A program made the translations under genes and the position numbers. A stretch of DNA of 64,000 bases, from positions 62,001-126,000 of the forward strand of contig JAAXWO010000003.1 of NCBI GenBank assembly GCA_013334965.1, given 5' to 3'. Position 1 is the stretch's first letter. The number at the start of each line of letters is the position of its first letter. Shown here piece by piece: positions 950 through 60,495 of the stretch. The notes under the pieces were generated by a model. That model was not told the origin of the DNA, did not search any database, and saw only the letters and a list, made by a program, of their open reading frames with translations. The stretch comes from Chlorobiaceae bacterium (GTDB lineage: Bacteria; Bacteroidota; Chlorobiia; Chlorobiales; Chlorobiaceae).

Positions 950-1016
950 GGGGAATCTCGGGAATGTAAGAATGGACGTTATGGACTGAATGGACGGGAT
1001 GGACAAAAGAGAAAGA
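950..1016. repeat. TGGAC-type short repeat, copy 1
   Basis: This spacer between mutL and tRNA-Arg carries GAATGTAAGAATGGACG followed by several TGGAC units spaced 8-10 bp. The same motif cluster appears near 10843-10977 and 42075-42195. Unlike those copies, this one has no obvious inverted right half. Confidence 0.6.
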
Positions 1017-10818: not shown

Positions 10819-10842
10819 GAAAAAGAGGAAGGAAGGAGTGGG

Positions 10843-10977
10843 AGAATGGACGTCATGGACGGAATGGACGGAATTTATGGGCGAAGTTAAAATTTCAGGA
10901 GACGGGCGGAATTTCTTCTCTTGTCCATTCCGTCCATCTCCCATATTTGTCCATTCACTCCATCACGTCCATTTTCT
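10843..10977. repeat. TGGAC-type repeat, copy 2, with inverted halves
   Basis: Between two convergent genes, the left half holds TGGACG units (TGGACGGAATGGACGG) and the right half their complement (TCCATTCCGTCCATCTCCC), so the transcript can fold back on itself. It may work as a bidirectional terminator. Similar units occur near 950-1016 and 42075-42195. Confidence 0.65.
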
Positions 10978-42074: not shown

Positions 42075-42195
42075 ATGGGAGAATGCAGGATGGACGAATG
42101 TAAGAAATGGACTGAATGGACTGAATGGACTGAATGGACGTCCAGGAGAAGAGCGGGGATACTATCCTTTTGCATTTGTCCATGCCGTCCATTCT
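42075..42195. repeat. TGGAC-type repeat, copy 3, with inverted halves
   Basis: The left half has GAATGTAAGAAATGGAC followed by three and a half copies of TGGACTGAA; the right half carries GTCCATGCCGTCCATTC as its partial complement. It sits between convergent genes, as copy 2 does. Confidence 0.65.
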
Positions 42196-55729: not shown

Positions 55730-56989
55730 ATGGACATCCAGGAAAAACTCCAGATCCTTTCGGGAGCCGCAAGGTACGACGCTTCATGCGCTTCGAGCGG
55801 CAGCAGCCGCGAGGGGAGTCCGCGCGGTACCGGCAACACGTCGCAGGGGGGCATCTGCCACTCATGGTCGGACGACGGCCGCTGCATCTCCCTCCTGAAA
55901 ATCCTGTTGTCCAACGATTGCCGCTACGACTGCGCCTACTGCGTCAACCGCTCATCGAATCCCATGCCGAGAGCATCCTTCACGGCAAGGGAGGTCGTCG
56001 ACCTCACCATGGATTTCTATCGCCGGAACTATATCGAAGGTCTCTTCCTCAGTTCCGCAGTCATGAAGGGACCCGACCAGACGATGGAGGAGATGGTTCG
56101 TGTCGCCGAAATCCTCAGGAACGAGGAGCGTTTCGGCGGCTACATCCACCTGAAGGTCATTCCCGGAAGCAGCCCTGAGCTGGTCCGGCGAGCCGGGCTT
56201 GCCGCCGACAGGATCAGCGTCAACATCGAGTTGCCGTCGAGCGAATCGCTGCATCGGCTCGCTCCGCAAAAACGCAGGGAGTCGATACTCGAACCGATGA
56301 AGCTCATCGGCGGCCAGATCGGCACAAGCCTGGTCGAACGGAGAAAAAGCAGGAACGCGCCACGCTTCGCACCGGCCGGGCAGAGCACCCAGATGATCAT
56401 CGGCGCCAGCCCGGAAACCGATTTCCAGATCCTCAAGCTCTCCCAGGGGCTCTACAACCGGATGAACCTCAAGCGCGTCTACTACTCCGCCTTTGTGCCG
56501 GTCAACGACGACAACCGCTTGCCGGTTCTGGCCTCGCCGCCGCTCCTTCGCGAGCATCGACTCTACCAGGCCGACTGGCTGTTGCGATTCTACGGTTTTT
56601 CAGCAGAGGAGATCCTCTCCGACGACGCGCCGGACCTCGACGAATCGTTCGATCCCAAGACCGCCTGGGCCCTGCGCCATCCGGAGTTTTTCCCGGTCGA
56701 GATCAACCGCGCAGACTACGGCACGCTGCTCCGAGTGCCAGGTATCGGAGTTACATCGGCCAAACGCATCATAGCCGCCCGCCGTTTCTCGCTCATCACC
56801 CCCGATGGCATGAAGAAGATCGGAGTGGTCATGAAACGGGCAAAATATTTCATCACCTGCTCCGGGCGACCCTTCGAAAAAACCGACCAGCAACCTGCCC
56901 GTCTTCGCCAGAGGCTTCTGCTCGGCGACGGGAGCGAGTCGGCGACAGCACTGGCACCGGCACCGAGGCAGATGGTTTTGTTTTCGTGA
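55730..56989 (+). CDS. Putative DNA modification/repair radical SAM protein
   Basis: The 419-residue product has the radical SAM motif in NDCRYDCAYCVNR and a helix-hairpin-helix (LLRVPGIGVTSAKRIIAARR) near the C terminus, a DNA-binding element. This pair of domains defines the family that partners a UDG-link protein, thought to act in DNA modification or repair. Its usual partner is found at 57995-58735, separated by the heptamer-repeat island. It begins 16 nt after the FAD oxidoreductase. The stop codon lies in the first heptamer of the array. Confidence 0.87.
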   Translation: MDIQEKLQILSGAARYDASCASSGSSREGSPRGTGNTSQGGICHSWSDDGRCISLLKILLSNDCRYDCAYCVNRSSNPMPRASFTAREVVDLTMDFYRRNYIEGLFLSSAVMKGPDQTMEEMVRVAEILRNEERFGGYIHLKVIPGSSPELVRRAGLAADRISVNIELPSSESLHRLAPQKRRESILEPMKLIGGQIGTSLVERRKSRNAPRFAPAGQSTQMIIGASPETDFQILKLSQGLYNRMNLKRVYYSAFVPVNDDNRLPVLASPPLLREHRLYQADWLLRFYGFSAEEILSDDAPDLDESFDPKTAWALRHPEFFPVEINRADYGTLLRVPGIGVTSAKRIIAARRFSLITPDGMKKIGVVMKRAKYFITCSGRPFEKTDQQPARLRQRLLLGDGSESATALAPAPRQMVLFS

Positions 56990-57230
56990 CGCGTGACGCG
57001 TAACACGTGACACGTGACACGTAACACGAGACGCGAGATGCGAGACGCGAGATGCGAGATGCGAGACGCGAGATGCGAGACGCGAGATGCGAGACGCGAG
57101 ATGCGAGACGCGAGATGCGAGACGCGAGATGCGAGACGCGAGATGCGAGACGCGAGACGCGAGACGCGAGACGCGAGATGCGAGACGCGAGACGCGAGAT
57201 GCGAGACGTGAGACGCGAGACAGGAGACGT
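56986..57230. repeat. Left heptamer tandem array (about 35 units)
   Basis: Thirty-five contiguous 7-bp units run from 56986 to 57230. Six units of the GTGACGC/GTAACAC type come first, then 29 of GAGACGC or GAGATGC, often alternating. The array is open in all three forward frames and produces repetitive, non-gene-like translations (MRDARCET-like). Its outer end matches the inverted outer end of the right array. Confidence 0.9.
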
Positions 57231-57256
57231 GAATAAATGTAACTGTATTAAGGTTT

Positions 57257-57619
57257 ATGATTTCTCATAAGGAATTGGATGTATGGAAGCAATCCATGTC
57301 ATTTGTCGAAAGGATTTATGCTTTTACCCGATGTTTCCCCGATGAAGAGAAATTTGGTCTGACTTCACAATTAAGGAGAGCATCGGTTTCGATACCATCA
57401 AATATTTCGGAGGGTGCGGCTCGGCAGGGGAAGAAAGAATTCGAACATTTTCTGTACATAGCACTCGGATCCGCAGCGGAAGTGGAGACACAGCTTGAAC
57501 TGGTTTGCAGACTTGGTTTTGCTTCAGAGTCGACAGTATCCATTGAACAAGAAAATCTTTGAAGGATCCGGCAAATGCTTCTGGGGATGATCCGCCATCT
57601 CAAGAGAGCCGATACCTGA
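57257..57619 (+). pseudogene. Four-helix-bundle protein (23S rRNA IVS-type), interrupted by an in-frame stop
   Basis: The translation follows the four-helix-bundle protein family first seen in 23S rRNA intervening sequences: ISHKELDVWKQSM, GLTSQLRRASVSIPSNISEG and KEFEHFLYIALGSAAEVETQL. The ORF stops at TGA 57560-57562, but the same frame continues as RIRQMLLGMIRHLKRADT, the usual C terminus, to TGA 57617-57619. The full gene is 120 codons, so one nonsense codon truncates it after residue 101. The truncated protein may retain part of the bundle. It sits between two inverted heptamer arrays. Confidence 0.85.
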
Positions 57620-57623
57620 AACG

Positions 57624-57976
57624 TCTCACGCGTCCCGTTTCCGTAGTCCCAAGTCACGCGTCCCGTGTTACGCGTCCCGTTTCCGTAGTCCCAAGTCACG
57701 CGTCCCGTGTTACGCGACCCGTTTCCGTAGTCCCAAGTCACGCGTCCCGTGTTACGCGACCCGTTTCCGTAGTCCCAAGTCACGCGTCCCGTGTTACGCG
57801 ACCCGTTTCCGTAGTCCCAAGTCACGCGTCCCGTGTTACGCGACCCGTTTCCGTAGTCCCAAGTCACGCGTCCCGTGTTCCGCGTCCCGTTTCCGTAGTC
57901 CCTAGTCACGCGTCCCGTGTCACGCGTCACGTTTCCCTAGTCCCTAGTCACGCGTCACGTTTTCCCTGTCACTCGT
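57624..57976. repeat. Right 42-bp tandem array
   Basis: Eight phases spaced exactly 42 bp are marked by GTCCCAA or GTCCCTA at 57646, 57688, 57730, 57772, 57814, 57856, 57898 and 57940. Each unit is six heptamers (for example GTCACGC, GTCCCGT, GTTACGC). The heptamers are the reverse complements of the left array's GTGACGC/GTAACAC class. No CRISPR-like spacers are present. It ends 18 nt before the next gene. Confidence 0.9.
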
Positions 57977-57994
57977 CATTATATAATTTTACCT

Positions 57995-58735
57995 ATGCCC
58001 AGATTTCTCTACGACGGCACTCCTGAAGGCCTCGTGTCGGCGATAGCCGAAATCCTCGATAGCGGGGCAGATCCAAAAAAGGCAGTGATCGTTGCAAGGC
58101 AGGACACGCTCTTCGAAGAGGGGTTGTTCATCCGTACAGACCCTACCAGCGTAGACGCACTATTTTCAAAGCTTCGGCAGCGGGCTCCCGATGCCGTGCA
58201 TACCCTCTGGTACTTTACGATGGCTGAAACCACGGAGATGGAGACCAGCCTGCTTCGTTACATTACCCTCGCCTTCGAGCATGGCGACCGCATCAACGGG
58301 CACCTCACCGATTCCGACGTCAAGGCCATCGTCAGTACTGCCCGCAAGGCTGGCAGGGAGCTGCATCGCATGAAAGGGCTGCTCCGGTTCGAACAGCTCC
58401 GCGACGGCACCTACCTTGCCAGGATGGAGCCCGACCACGACGTCATCCAGCCCCTCGCGCACCATTTCAGCCGCCGCCTGCGAGCCCAGGTCTGGTACAT
58501 CTACGACGTGAAGCGGCACAGCGCCGCATACTGGGACGGCAGGGAGCTCAGTTTCGGTACCCTCGAACAGTTCAGCAAGCCGGAGCTCTCCGAAGAGGAG
58601 AAAGCGGTGCAGCAGAGGTGGCAGGCCTTCTTCAGGACCATAGCCATCCCGGAGCGCAAAAACCCCCGCCTCCAGAAATCCAACATGCCCGCCAAATACT
58701 GGAAGTACCTCACCGAGAAGCAGGCGGAGGGGTAG
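57995..58735 (+). CDS. UDG-link (DUF4130-like) DNA metabolism protein, partner of the radical SAM gene
   Basis: The 246-residue product begins MPRFLYDGTPEGLVSAI, has the FEQLRDGTYLARMEPDHD and HFSRRLRAQVWYIYDVKRH segments, and ends MPAKYWKYLTEKQAEG. This matches the small family that pairs with the radical SAM/HhH protein and in other genomes may be fused to a uracil-DNA glycosylase domain, which is absent here. The pair probably acts on DNA bases, by inference. The two genes are normally adjacent; here the heptamer island separates them by about 1 kb. Its last 98 bp are duplicated at 59584-59681. Confidence 0.8.
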   Translation: MPRFLYDGTPEGLVSAIAEILDSGADPKKAVIVARQDTLFEEGLFIRTDPTSVDALFSKLRQRAPDAVHTLWYFTMAETTEMETSLLRYITLAFEHGDRINGHLTDSDVKAIVSTARKAGRELHRMKGLLRFEQLRDGTYLARMEPDHDVIQPLAHHFSRRLRAQVWYIYDVKRHSAAYWDGRELSFGTLEQFSKPELSEEEKAVQQRWQAFFRTIAIPERKNPRLQKSNMPAKYWKYLTEKQAEG

Positions 58736-58736
58736 G
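58638..58736. repeat. Direct repeat, left copy (3' end of UDG-link gene)
   Basis: This 99-bp end of the UDG-link gene is repeated at 59584-59681 with only a few differences. The two copies bracket the Fic module. Confidence 0.85.
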
Positions 58737-58738
58737 AC

Positions 58739-59349
58739 ATGCCACCGGTCAGCACGAAATATCACGCATCAGACGCGAATGAGTATGAACCCGGTTCCCG
58801 TAATCGTGTTCTGAGAAATCTGCTGGGATTGAAAACAAAAAAGGGGTTTGATGCTCAAGAGATAAAGGGGTACGAAAAAGCCTATCAATTTGTAGTCAAT
58901 AAGTTCAGAGTGGACCAGTGTCTTCATGTACAGACATTGACGCGATCCATAAACAGTTTTTCGAGCAGTTATATCCATGGGCGGGGCAACACAGAAGCGT
59001 AAATCTGACAAAAGAGGGATTTACTTTTCCTTCGGCACAATTTCTGGAAAATACGCTATACACCTTTGAAAAAGAGGTTCTGGCGCCAAACACTCCTTGC
59101 TCAGGTTCTGTGGAGGAAGTGCTGAACAAGATTGCCAATGTGCATCTGGAACTGCTGTTCATTCACCCATACAGGGAGGGGAACGGTCGTACAGCAAGAC
59201 TTGTGGCTACCTTGATGGCTTTGCAGGCAGGATATGAGGGATTTGACTGGAGTTTGGTGGACAAGCGGGTTGACGAGTATGTAAATGCCATTCAGACTTT
59301 AGACGTGGCGCTTATGGCTACTCTTCTTGTCGCTGCGCTGGTGCGCTGA
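58739..59349 (+). pseudogene. Fic/DOC family AMPylase-type protein, frameshifted
   Basis: The N-terminal frame (58739-59002) reads NEYEPGSRNRVLRNLLGL and KGYEKAYQFVVNKFRVDQ, the usual Fic N-terminal helices. Homology then moves to another frame from about 58918: DIDAIHKQFFEQLYPWAGQ and the catalytic motif IHPYREGNGRTARL. The frame change at about 58915-58930 needs a 1-nt insertion or 2-nt deletion, so the gene is broken unless recoded. Fic proteins transfer AMP to target proteins; the intact motif would be active. A convergent ORF with an SxxxEG motif overlaps its 3' end. Confidence 0.8.
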
Positions 59350-59505
59350 GCTTTCTGCTTTATGGGATTTGTCCAGAACTGCTTTAGCATTGTTCACCCC
59401 TTCAATTTTTGACGAGGTTACCACTTCACGGTACATCATCTCCCTGAAGCCCTCTTTTGTCTGGAGCTTTGGATGTGCCTGAATGAGTGTGAAGTTTCGG
59501 CTCAT
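59299..59505 (-). CDS. Small ORF with Fic-inhibition-like SxxxEG motif (possible antitoxin)
   Basis: The 68-residue product reads MSRNFTLIQAHPKLQTKEGF then REVVTSSKIEGVNNAK. SSKIEG fits the (S/T)xxxE(G/N) helix by which antitoxins such as VbhA, or the N-terminal segment of class II Fic proteins, block the Fic active site. It is transcribed against the Fic gene and overlaps its last 51 bp. It could be an antitoxin or a leftover Fic_N fragment. Its Shine-Dalgarno is weak, so expression is uncertain. Confidence 0.45.
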   Translation of the reverse strand: MSRNFTLIQAHPKLQTKEGFREMMYREVVTSSKIEGVNNAKAVLDKSHKAESSAHQRSDKKSSHKRHV

Positions 59506-59583
59506 GAGTTTGATCCGTTATTGTTATTCTTTCAATGTACTAAGCACTATCAGAACGTCCAACCTTTGTAGCTCGTATTCGAG

Positions 59584-59681
59584 CCATAGCCATTTCATAG
59601 CGCAAGAACCCCCGCCTCCAGAAATCGAACATGCCCGCCAAATACTGGAAATACCTCACCGAGAAGCAGGCGGAGGGTTAG
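59584..59681 (+). pseudogene. Duplicated 3' fragment of the UDG-link gene
   Basis: Nearly identical to 58638-58736 (for example AACATGCCCGCCAAATACTGG), it has no start of its own and marks the far end of the Fic module. Confidence 0.85.
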
Positions 59682-59697
59682 TATATTTGCCTACGGA

Positions 59698-60495
59698 TTA
59701 TCGTTCCGCGACGATAAAGATGCGGTGGAACATGAGGTCGATCATGCCGTCGTTATCGGCCTGACGCTCGAATGCCTGATGGATGCCGTCGAGGAAGGCG
59801 GCTTCGAACCCTTCGGGCCACTCTCCATTGTAACATGCCGGGTCGAGGTACCCTGCCCTGGCGCCGGAACAGAACACGTCGAATGCCTGTTGCGGCGTCC
59901 TGAGGCTGCGCGACTCTTCGATAGTGCAGAACAGGACCCTGAACCCGGCCTGTTCGAAGAGTGATCGGTACTCATTTTCAGTTTCGAGGAAGAACCAGGG
60001 TGGCCGGAACCCTGAAAAAACCTTGCCGATCTCCGGATTCTCACTACACGTTTCGATTGCAGCGATAAATGCCGGGCAGTAGTCATGCCTTGCCGGTGCC
60101 TGTATGCCTATCCTTCCGCCTGGGCGAAGCGCCGTTCTCGCGTTGTCCAGGAAACGGGCAGGATTCCTGAACCACTGGAATGCGGAGTTGCAGTAGACGA
60201 TGTCGAACTCCTCCCGGAAGGCGATGCCTTCGGCGTCCATCTTCACGAAGCTGGTACGTTGATTGCTGAAAGCCTCGGATGCCACGCGCACCATTTCGCC
60301 GGAGGGGTCTATTCCTGTCACCTCGCCTGTTGTCCTTTTTGCCAGTTCAGCGGTGAGGTTTCCGGTACCGCATCCCACGTCGAGGATGTCAGCACTTTGC
60401 GGGATGTCGAGCAGCTCGATCAGCTTTGCTCCGGCCGAAGCCTGTACCAGAGAGGTCTGCCGGTAACGCGAGGCGATTTGGTCGAATCTTTCCAT
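59698..60495 (-). CDS. Class I SAM-dependent methyltransferase
   Basis: The 265-residue product has motif I (ADILDVGCGTGNLTAELAK), an acidic loop GIDPSGEMV, VKMDAEGIAF and YCNSAFQWF, all typical of class I small-molecule methyltransferases (trans-aconitate or ubiquinone methyltransferase-like). The substrate is unknown. It lies on the minus strand next to the Fic module and the MntA/HepT pair. Confidence 0.87.
   Translation of the reverse strand: MERFDQIASRYRQTSLVQASAGAKLIELLDIPQSADILDVGCGTGNLTAELAKRTTGEVTGIDPSGEMVRVASEAFSNQRTSFVKMDAEGIAFREEFDIVYCNSAFQWFRNPARFLDNARTALRPGGRIGIQAPARHDYCPAFIAAIETCSENPEIGKVFSGFRPPWFFLETENEYRSLFEQAGFRVLFCTIEESRSLRTPQQAFDVFCSGARAGYLDPACYNGEWPEGFEAAFLDGIHQAFERQADNDGMIDLMFHRIFIVAER

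Follow-up and report, generated by a model that had tools for sequence, protein, structure and literature searches.

A DUF4130 gene in the window (the whole stretch of DNA that was analysed, 64 kb in length) is followed by an 848-bp insert and then by a partial second copy of its own 3' end. This is a known layout, found here with new types of cargo and in a new host group, and it can be explained in outline. The favored explanation, to which we assign a probability of about 0.6, is insertion with a long target duplication, probably produced by recombination between two alleles, one with cargo and one without. At the DUF4130 locus, insertion rather than an ancestral structure is supported because one related genome (G016) has a single gene end without an insert and in another (G028) different cargo occupies the same junction. 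The joining step is one that we infer, and it would apply to the window locus by analogy with other genes at which the same architecture is present.

The host gene (57995-58735, forward strand) is intact and encodes a putative DNA repair protein of the TIGR03915 family (E 6.6e-74) with a match to DUF4130 (PF13566, E 3.8e-51). Copy 1 of the repeat (58638-58735, forward strand) is its exact native 3' end, stop codon included, and copy 2 (59584-59681, forward strand) is a partial second version of that gene end that has an in-frame stop (TAG) close to its left edge. The two form a direct repeat of 98 bp in which 90 of 98 positions are identical (91.8%; 8 mismatches), bearing out the initial claim of the sequence-only reading that some 98 bp of the upstream gene's 3' end recur beyond a Fic module. 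Self-BLAST of the 64-kb window gives the repeat an expectation value of about 1e-34, so it is not a chance similarity, and in the source genome it occurs at two places only, both at this locus. The copies lie 946 bp apart, and the module between them (58736-59583) begins directly after the host stop codon; it is absent in G016 (L044) and replaced by other cargo in G028 (L033). Downstream of copy 2 is a gene convergent to the host gene (59698-60495, reverse strand) for a class I SAM methyltransferase (PF13649, E 2.9e-24), which is the native downstream neighbor, adjoining DUF4130 in G016 and following copy 2 in G028.

The surroundings of the locus contain other repeats. Upstream of the host gene, a four-helix gene of the 23S rRNA intervening-sequence type (57257-57562) lies between arrays of 14-bp and 42-bp units (56985-57963) that are partly inverted relative to each other, and together these separate the radical-SAM and DUF4130 genes, which are close neighbors in relatives. 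Three places in the window (961-1004, 10835-10874 and 42096-42139) also carry a dispersed repeat about 40 bp long, with 85-86% identity between them.

The content of the insert is only partly as first described, in that the Fic match holds but the expected single open Fic frame does not. The Fic-family toxin gene (58739-59349, forward strand) is spread over two frames (58739-59002 and 58918-59349), of which the second matches PF02661 (E 5.4e-16), and the motif HPYREGNGR is preserved. Identities of 72-73% and 55-65% are observed to the Fic ORFs in G044 and G031. Because homology to intact Fic proteins crosses from the first frame into the second, one frameshift is placed near 58921-58930, and it may be an assembly error. 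The insert also holds a reverse-strand ORF of 68 amino acids (59299-59505), missing from the sequence-only reading, which is convergent to Fic and overlaps its 3' end. The same convergent pair is found in G044 and G031, the small ORF stands beside a decayed Fic gene in G065, and it persists in other relatives where Fic has decayed or gone. Among 394 genomes of the phylum it was detected in eight, all of them Chlorobiaceae, and no Pfam or NCBIfam model matched it. Antitoxins that inhibit Fic proteins carry the motif (S/T)xxxE(G/N); the inhibitory-helix-like SSKIEG of the small ORF fits this motif, and to judge from its sequence the ORF is a putative antitoxin to the neighboring Fic protein. The convergent layout or its remnants were also seen at loci L048, L049, L051 and L305-L308, and the small ORF is present alone on plasmid pPAES01 of Prosthecochloris aestuarii. 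Comparison of the 848-bp insert with plasmids gave no match.

Class I Fic-antitoxin pairs, VbhT/VbhA among them, combine a short Fic protein that bears an HPxxEGNGR-type motif with a separate small protein containing (S/T)xxxE(G/N). The pair in the window resembles them in its HPYREGNGR sequence (class motif HPFx(D/E)GN(G/K)R), its PF02661 match and its separate small ORF with SSKIEG; NF045983 matched only weakly. It differs from them in that the antitoxin-like ORF of the source genome, G044 and G031 is convergent and 3'-overlapping rather than upstream and co-directional, and, unlike VbhA-type antitoxins, the small ORF matches no curated model.

It had been suggested from the sequence alone that strains with one copy of the 98-bp sequence and no Fic gene, and the same junction with other cargo, should be sought, and both were found. 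In G016 (L044/L006), the same methyltransferase gene lies about 40 bp beyond the DUF4130 gene, with one gene-end copy and no insert. In the sister species G028 (L033), where the host protein is 91% identical, 118 bp of the gene end are present twice (92% identity) and enclose some 860 bp of unrelated sequence. This sequence contains two co-directional ORFs, the first of which has a weak TumA match (E 0.006), and the second of which is found nowhere else in the family and is unnamed by Pfam and NCBIfam; given the weak match, we tentatively take the cassette to be TumA/TumE-like. The junctions at the stop codon agree within a few bases (TAG-GACAT in the source genome, TAG-GATAT in G028), and the right flank is shared. 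An adjacent second copy of the DUF4130 gene end is present only in these two of 86 Chlorobiaceae genomes, and no relative has the Fic gene of the window at this place.

The occurrence of different cargo in sister species, at nearly the same stop-codon junction and with the same right flank, may also suggest that a single ancestral duplication preceded the split of the source genome and G028, and that homologous recombination at the fixed repeats later swapped the cargo. We regard this as a possible account of the sister pair, although not the probable one, and it is compatible with the favored model for the first event. The left ends of copy 2 differ between the two species (98 versus 118 bp), and a tree of the 98-bp sequences, itself weakly supported, does not place the two first copies together and the two second copies together; moreover, an ancestral duplication explains neither how the first duplication arose nor the cases at other genes. 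Tandem duplication and replacement, as suggested earlier, is still in play for the sister pair. The clade-specific ending KQAEG* is shared by all four copies in these two species, which places the source of any contributing foreign allele within that clade.

The other origin proposed by the sequence-only reading, insertion in the manner of integrative elements, is not supported. A site-specific element that restores the 3' end of its target gene would account for insertion exactly at a gene end and for the displacement of a partial copy, both familiar from attachment sites in tRNA genes and trmE. However, no recombinase gene was found in the DUF4130 inserts of the source genome or G028, the two cargos are unrelated, no tRNA was found at the locus, and an inverted-repeat scan of the window locus detected none at the insert ends. 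The same architecture also recurs at several target genes, among which no shared core was noticed by eye, with duplications that vary from 98 to 254 bp and with one case at a 5' end. Such an element is very improbable as the source of these inserts.

The additional cases came from comparing every retrieved locus with itself and from doing likewise for 2.05 Mb of sequence (the window, and stretches taken at even spacing or at contig ends in G008, G024, G012 and the source genome), and with them the layout is spread over seven target genes. At their 3' ends, panB is duplicated over 111 bp around BrnA (L064), an HTH gene over 166 bp (97% identity) around HigBA (L126, G044), a gene for a family-5 peptide-binding solute-binding protein (SBP) over 254 bp around HigBA (L137=L169, G024), a DUF2442-like gene over 153 bp around MntA-HepT (L179) and ppc over 191 bp around a UbiA-family gene (L206, G024). 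The assignments to panB (L064) and DUF2442 (L179) are presumptive. A 5'-end version, in which 166 bp of engB are duplicated around a small ORF, is found in the source genome itself (L232). The cargo is often, but not always, a toxin-antitoxin module, and no integrase (by the families of the inserts) or terminal inverted repeat (by the scan at the window locus) is evident in the gene-end cases. No gene-end case was detected in 400 kb each of G008 and G012, and BrnT loci lacked a flanking gene-end duplication.

These loci bear on whether the two copies of a gene end began as one allele or as two. A comparison of the copies in G024 by codon position (first/second/third) gives 6/2/20 differences for SBP and 4/2/16 for ppc, a pattern like that of differences between orthologs. 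Pooled (10/4/36), with 36 of 50 differences at third positions and four of 50 at second positions, this distribution has a P value of 0.002-0.03, depending on the assumed share, under local duplication with a neutral copy 2, for a pair of genes chosen post hoc as the two longest 3'-end cases. Copy 2 of SBP in G024 also groups with the single-copy gene of another species, G012 (90.4% identity, versus 88.9% to copy 1; local support 0.948). Taken together, the third-position bias and the affinity of SBP copy 2 favor the joining of cargo-bearing and cargo-free alleles. Both kinds of allele coexist in the genus, since cargo without a duplication is present in some species and no cargo in others: HigB and HigA lie behind the SBP gene in G034 and G004, and HigB in G032, with no second copy within the stretch examined, and UbiA lies behind ppc in G032, likewise with no second copy within the stretch examined, in addition to other species without such cargo. 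On these sequence comparisons, the SBP and ppc copies in G024 appear to differ as coding alleles of separate lineages do, which argues against their origin from one allele.

A local insertion with target duplication would give the same product structure, with cargo joined during repair or replication between sister copies that had broken some 100 bp from each other; the two copies would be identical at birth, and copy 2 would subsequently decay. Several loci are in keeping with this. Differences at panB (2/5/4) and engB (5/8/14) reveal no clear coding constraint, the HTH copies in G044 are 97% identical, and the ppc copies in G002 are 97.8% alike and group together, which fits a recent local duplication or gene conversion. 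In G000, tandem partial copies of the mnmE 3' end, about 98% identical and without cargo, lie behind that gene (L235, 1-2473, on contig C14). At the DUF4130 locus, early-stop and non-synonymous changes are concentrated toward the left of copy 2 both in the source genome and in G028. Set against these observations are the pooled third-position bias of SBP and ppc in G024 and the grouping of SBP copy 2 with another species, and as a general account local duplication is rather unlikely. For panB, engB, the G044 HTH gene and the G002 ppc it fits at least as well as the favored model, and both routes may operate. In the source genome itself, the DUF4130 copies show 2/0/6 differences by codon position, which is not significant under local duplication with a neutral copy 2 (P about 0.1-0.18), and the evidence for alleles of different lineages is only suggestive at the window locus.

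In the favored model, recombination of two alleles, which is also the most economical, a small toxin-antitoxin module would be set directly behind the DUF4130 stop codon, and a second gene 3' end would be left beyond it. One partner, either a chromosome or imported DNA, would carry the gene with cargo, and the other would be a chromosome with the gene and its downstream region but no cargo. One joint would be homologous, in or near the gene, and the other illegitimate, fusing the cargo's outer edge to a site that lies about 100-250 bp within the gene of the cargo-free allele, whose gene end would then become copy 2. No dedicated recombinase would be required; survivors would be those that keep the whole host gene, so that the duplication would cover the gene end, and homologous recombination between the flanking repeats could afterwards remove or swap the cargo. 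Chlorobiaceae can take up DNA, and Chlorobaculum tepidum is naturally transformable, with which the literature matches are consistent.

Insertion with a long target duplication was reportedly described by Nobusato et al. in 2000. In restriction-modification systems, inserts are known to be flanked by target duplications that are long (about 100 bp) and variable in length (PMC3874152; PMC1643837). The present loci share with them long direct duplications of variable length around the cargo (98, 118, 111, 166, 254, 153 and 191 bp), a related genome with a single copy and no insert (G016), and inserts without transposase or integrase, with no terminal inverted repeats at the window locus. The known cases concern restriction-modification genes, chiefly in Helicobacter pylori, an association that is common in published cases but does not define the structure, whereas the cargo in Chlorobiaceae consists of Fic with its antitoxin-like ORF, the two-ORF TumA-like pair, HigBA, BrnA, MntA-HepT, UbiA and small ORFs; unlike in the known cases, the two copies sometimes differ in the way that alleles from separate lineages do. 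Homology-facilitated illegitimate recombination, in which, as proposed here, one joint is homologous and the other illegitimate, takes place in naturally competent bacteria and also during conjugation (PMC3240628), and in pneumococcus, transformation generates partial duplications from DNA that is taken up (PMC3784515). The pneumococcal duplications span about 100-900 kb and need pre-existing repeats (PMC3784515), and both systems were laboratory events, whereas the process here is reconstructed from finished products. Among the papers searched, none was found on the gene-end duplication pattern in Chlorobiaceae.

The settling of small addiction modules without mobility genes of their own in chromosomes is poorly explained, and the present loci extend the pattern from restriction-modification genes to toxin-antitoxin modules. 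An empty site, a junction occupied by either of two cargos, cargo both accompanied and unaccompanied by a duplication, and further target genes together make the joining mechanism testable. A gene tail beside such a module would be read as a scar rather than as a pseudogene of a separate gene. A broader proposition, that green sulfur bacteria undergo recurrent, integrase-free cassette insertion directed to gene ends, with toxin-antitoxin modules and small genes placed behind stop codons and the gene end rebuilt, is unlikely; if true, it would turn the 3' ends of genes into sites at which addiction modules are exchanged.

Several repeats resembling the gene-end cases were set aside: a dispersed repeat (L127), a low-complexity sequence (L165), and repeats within long genes or paralogues (L170, L234). 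The 59-bp repeats around a Fic gene in G029 (L057, 1291-1349 and 2440-2498) were not counted because they belong to a dispersed intergenic repeat; a related one surrounds another ORF in G056 (L070, 168-282 and 1646-1760). A further look-alike (L129, 56-3137, on contig C123 of G059) is, by its reverse transcriptase, template repeat and variable repeat, presumably a diversity-generating retroelement. A TIR-type target gene carries the variable repeat at its 3' end, and a HigBA pair lies in between.
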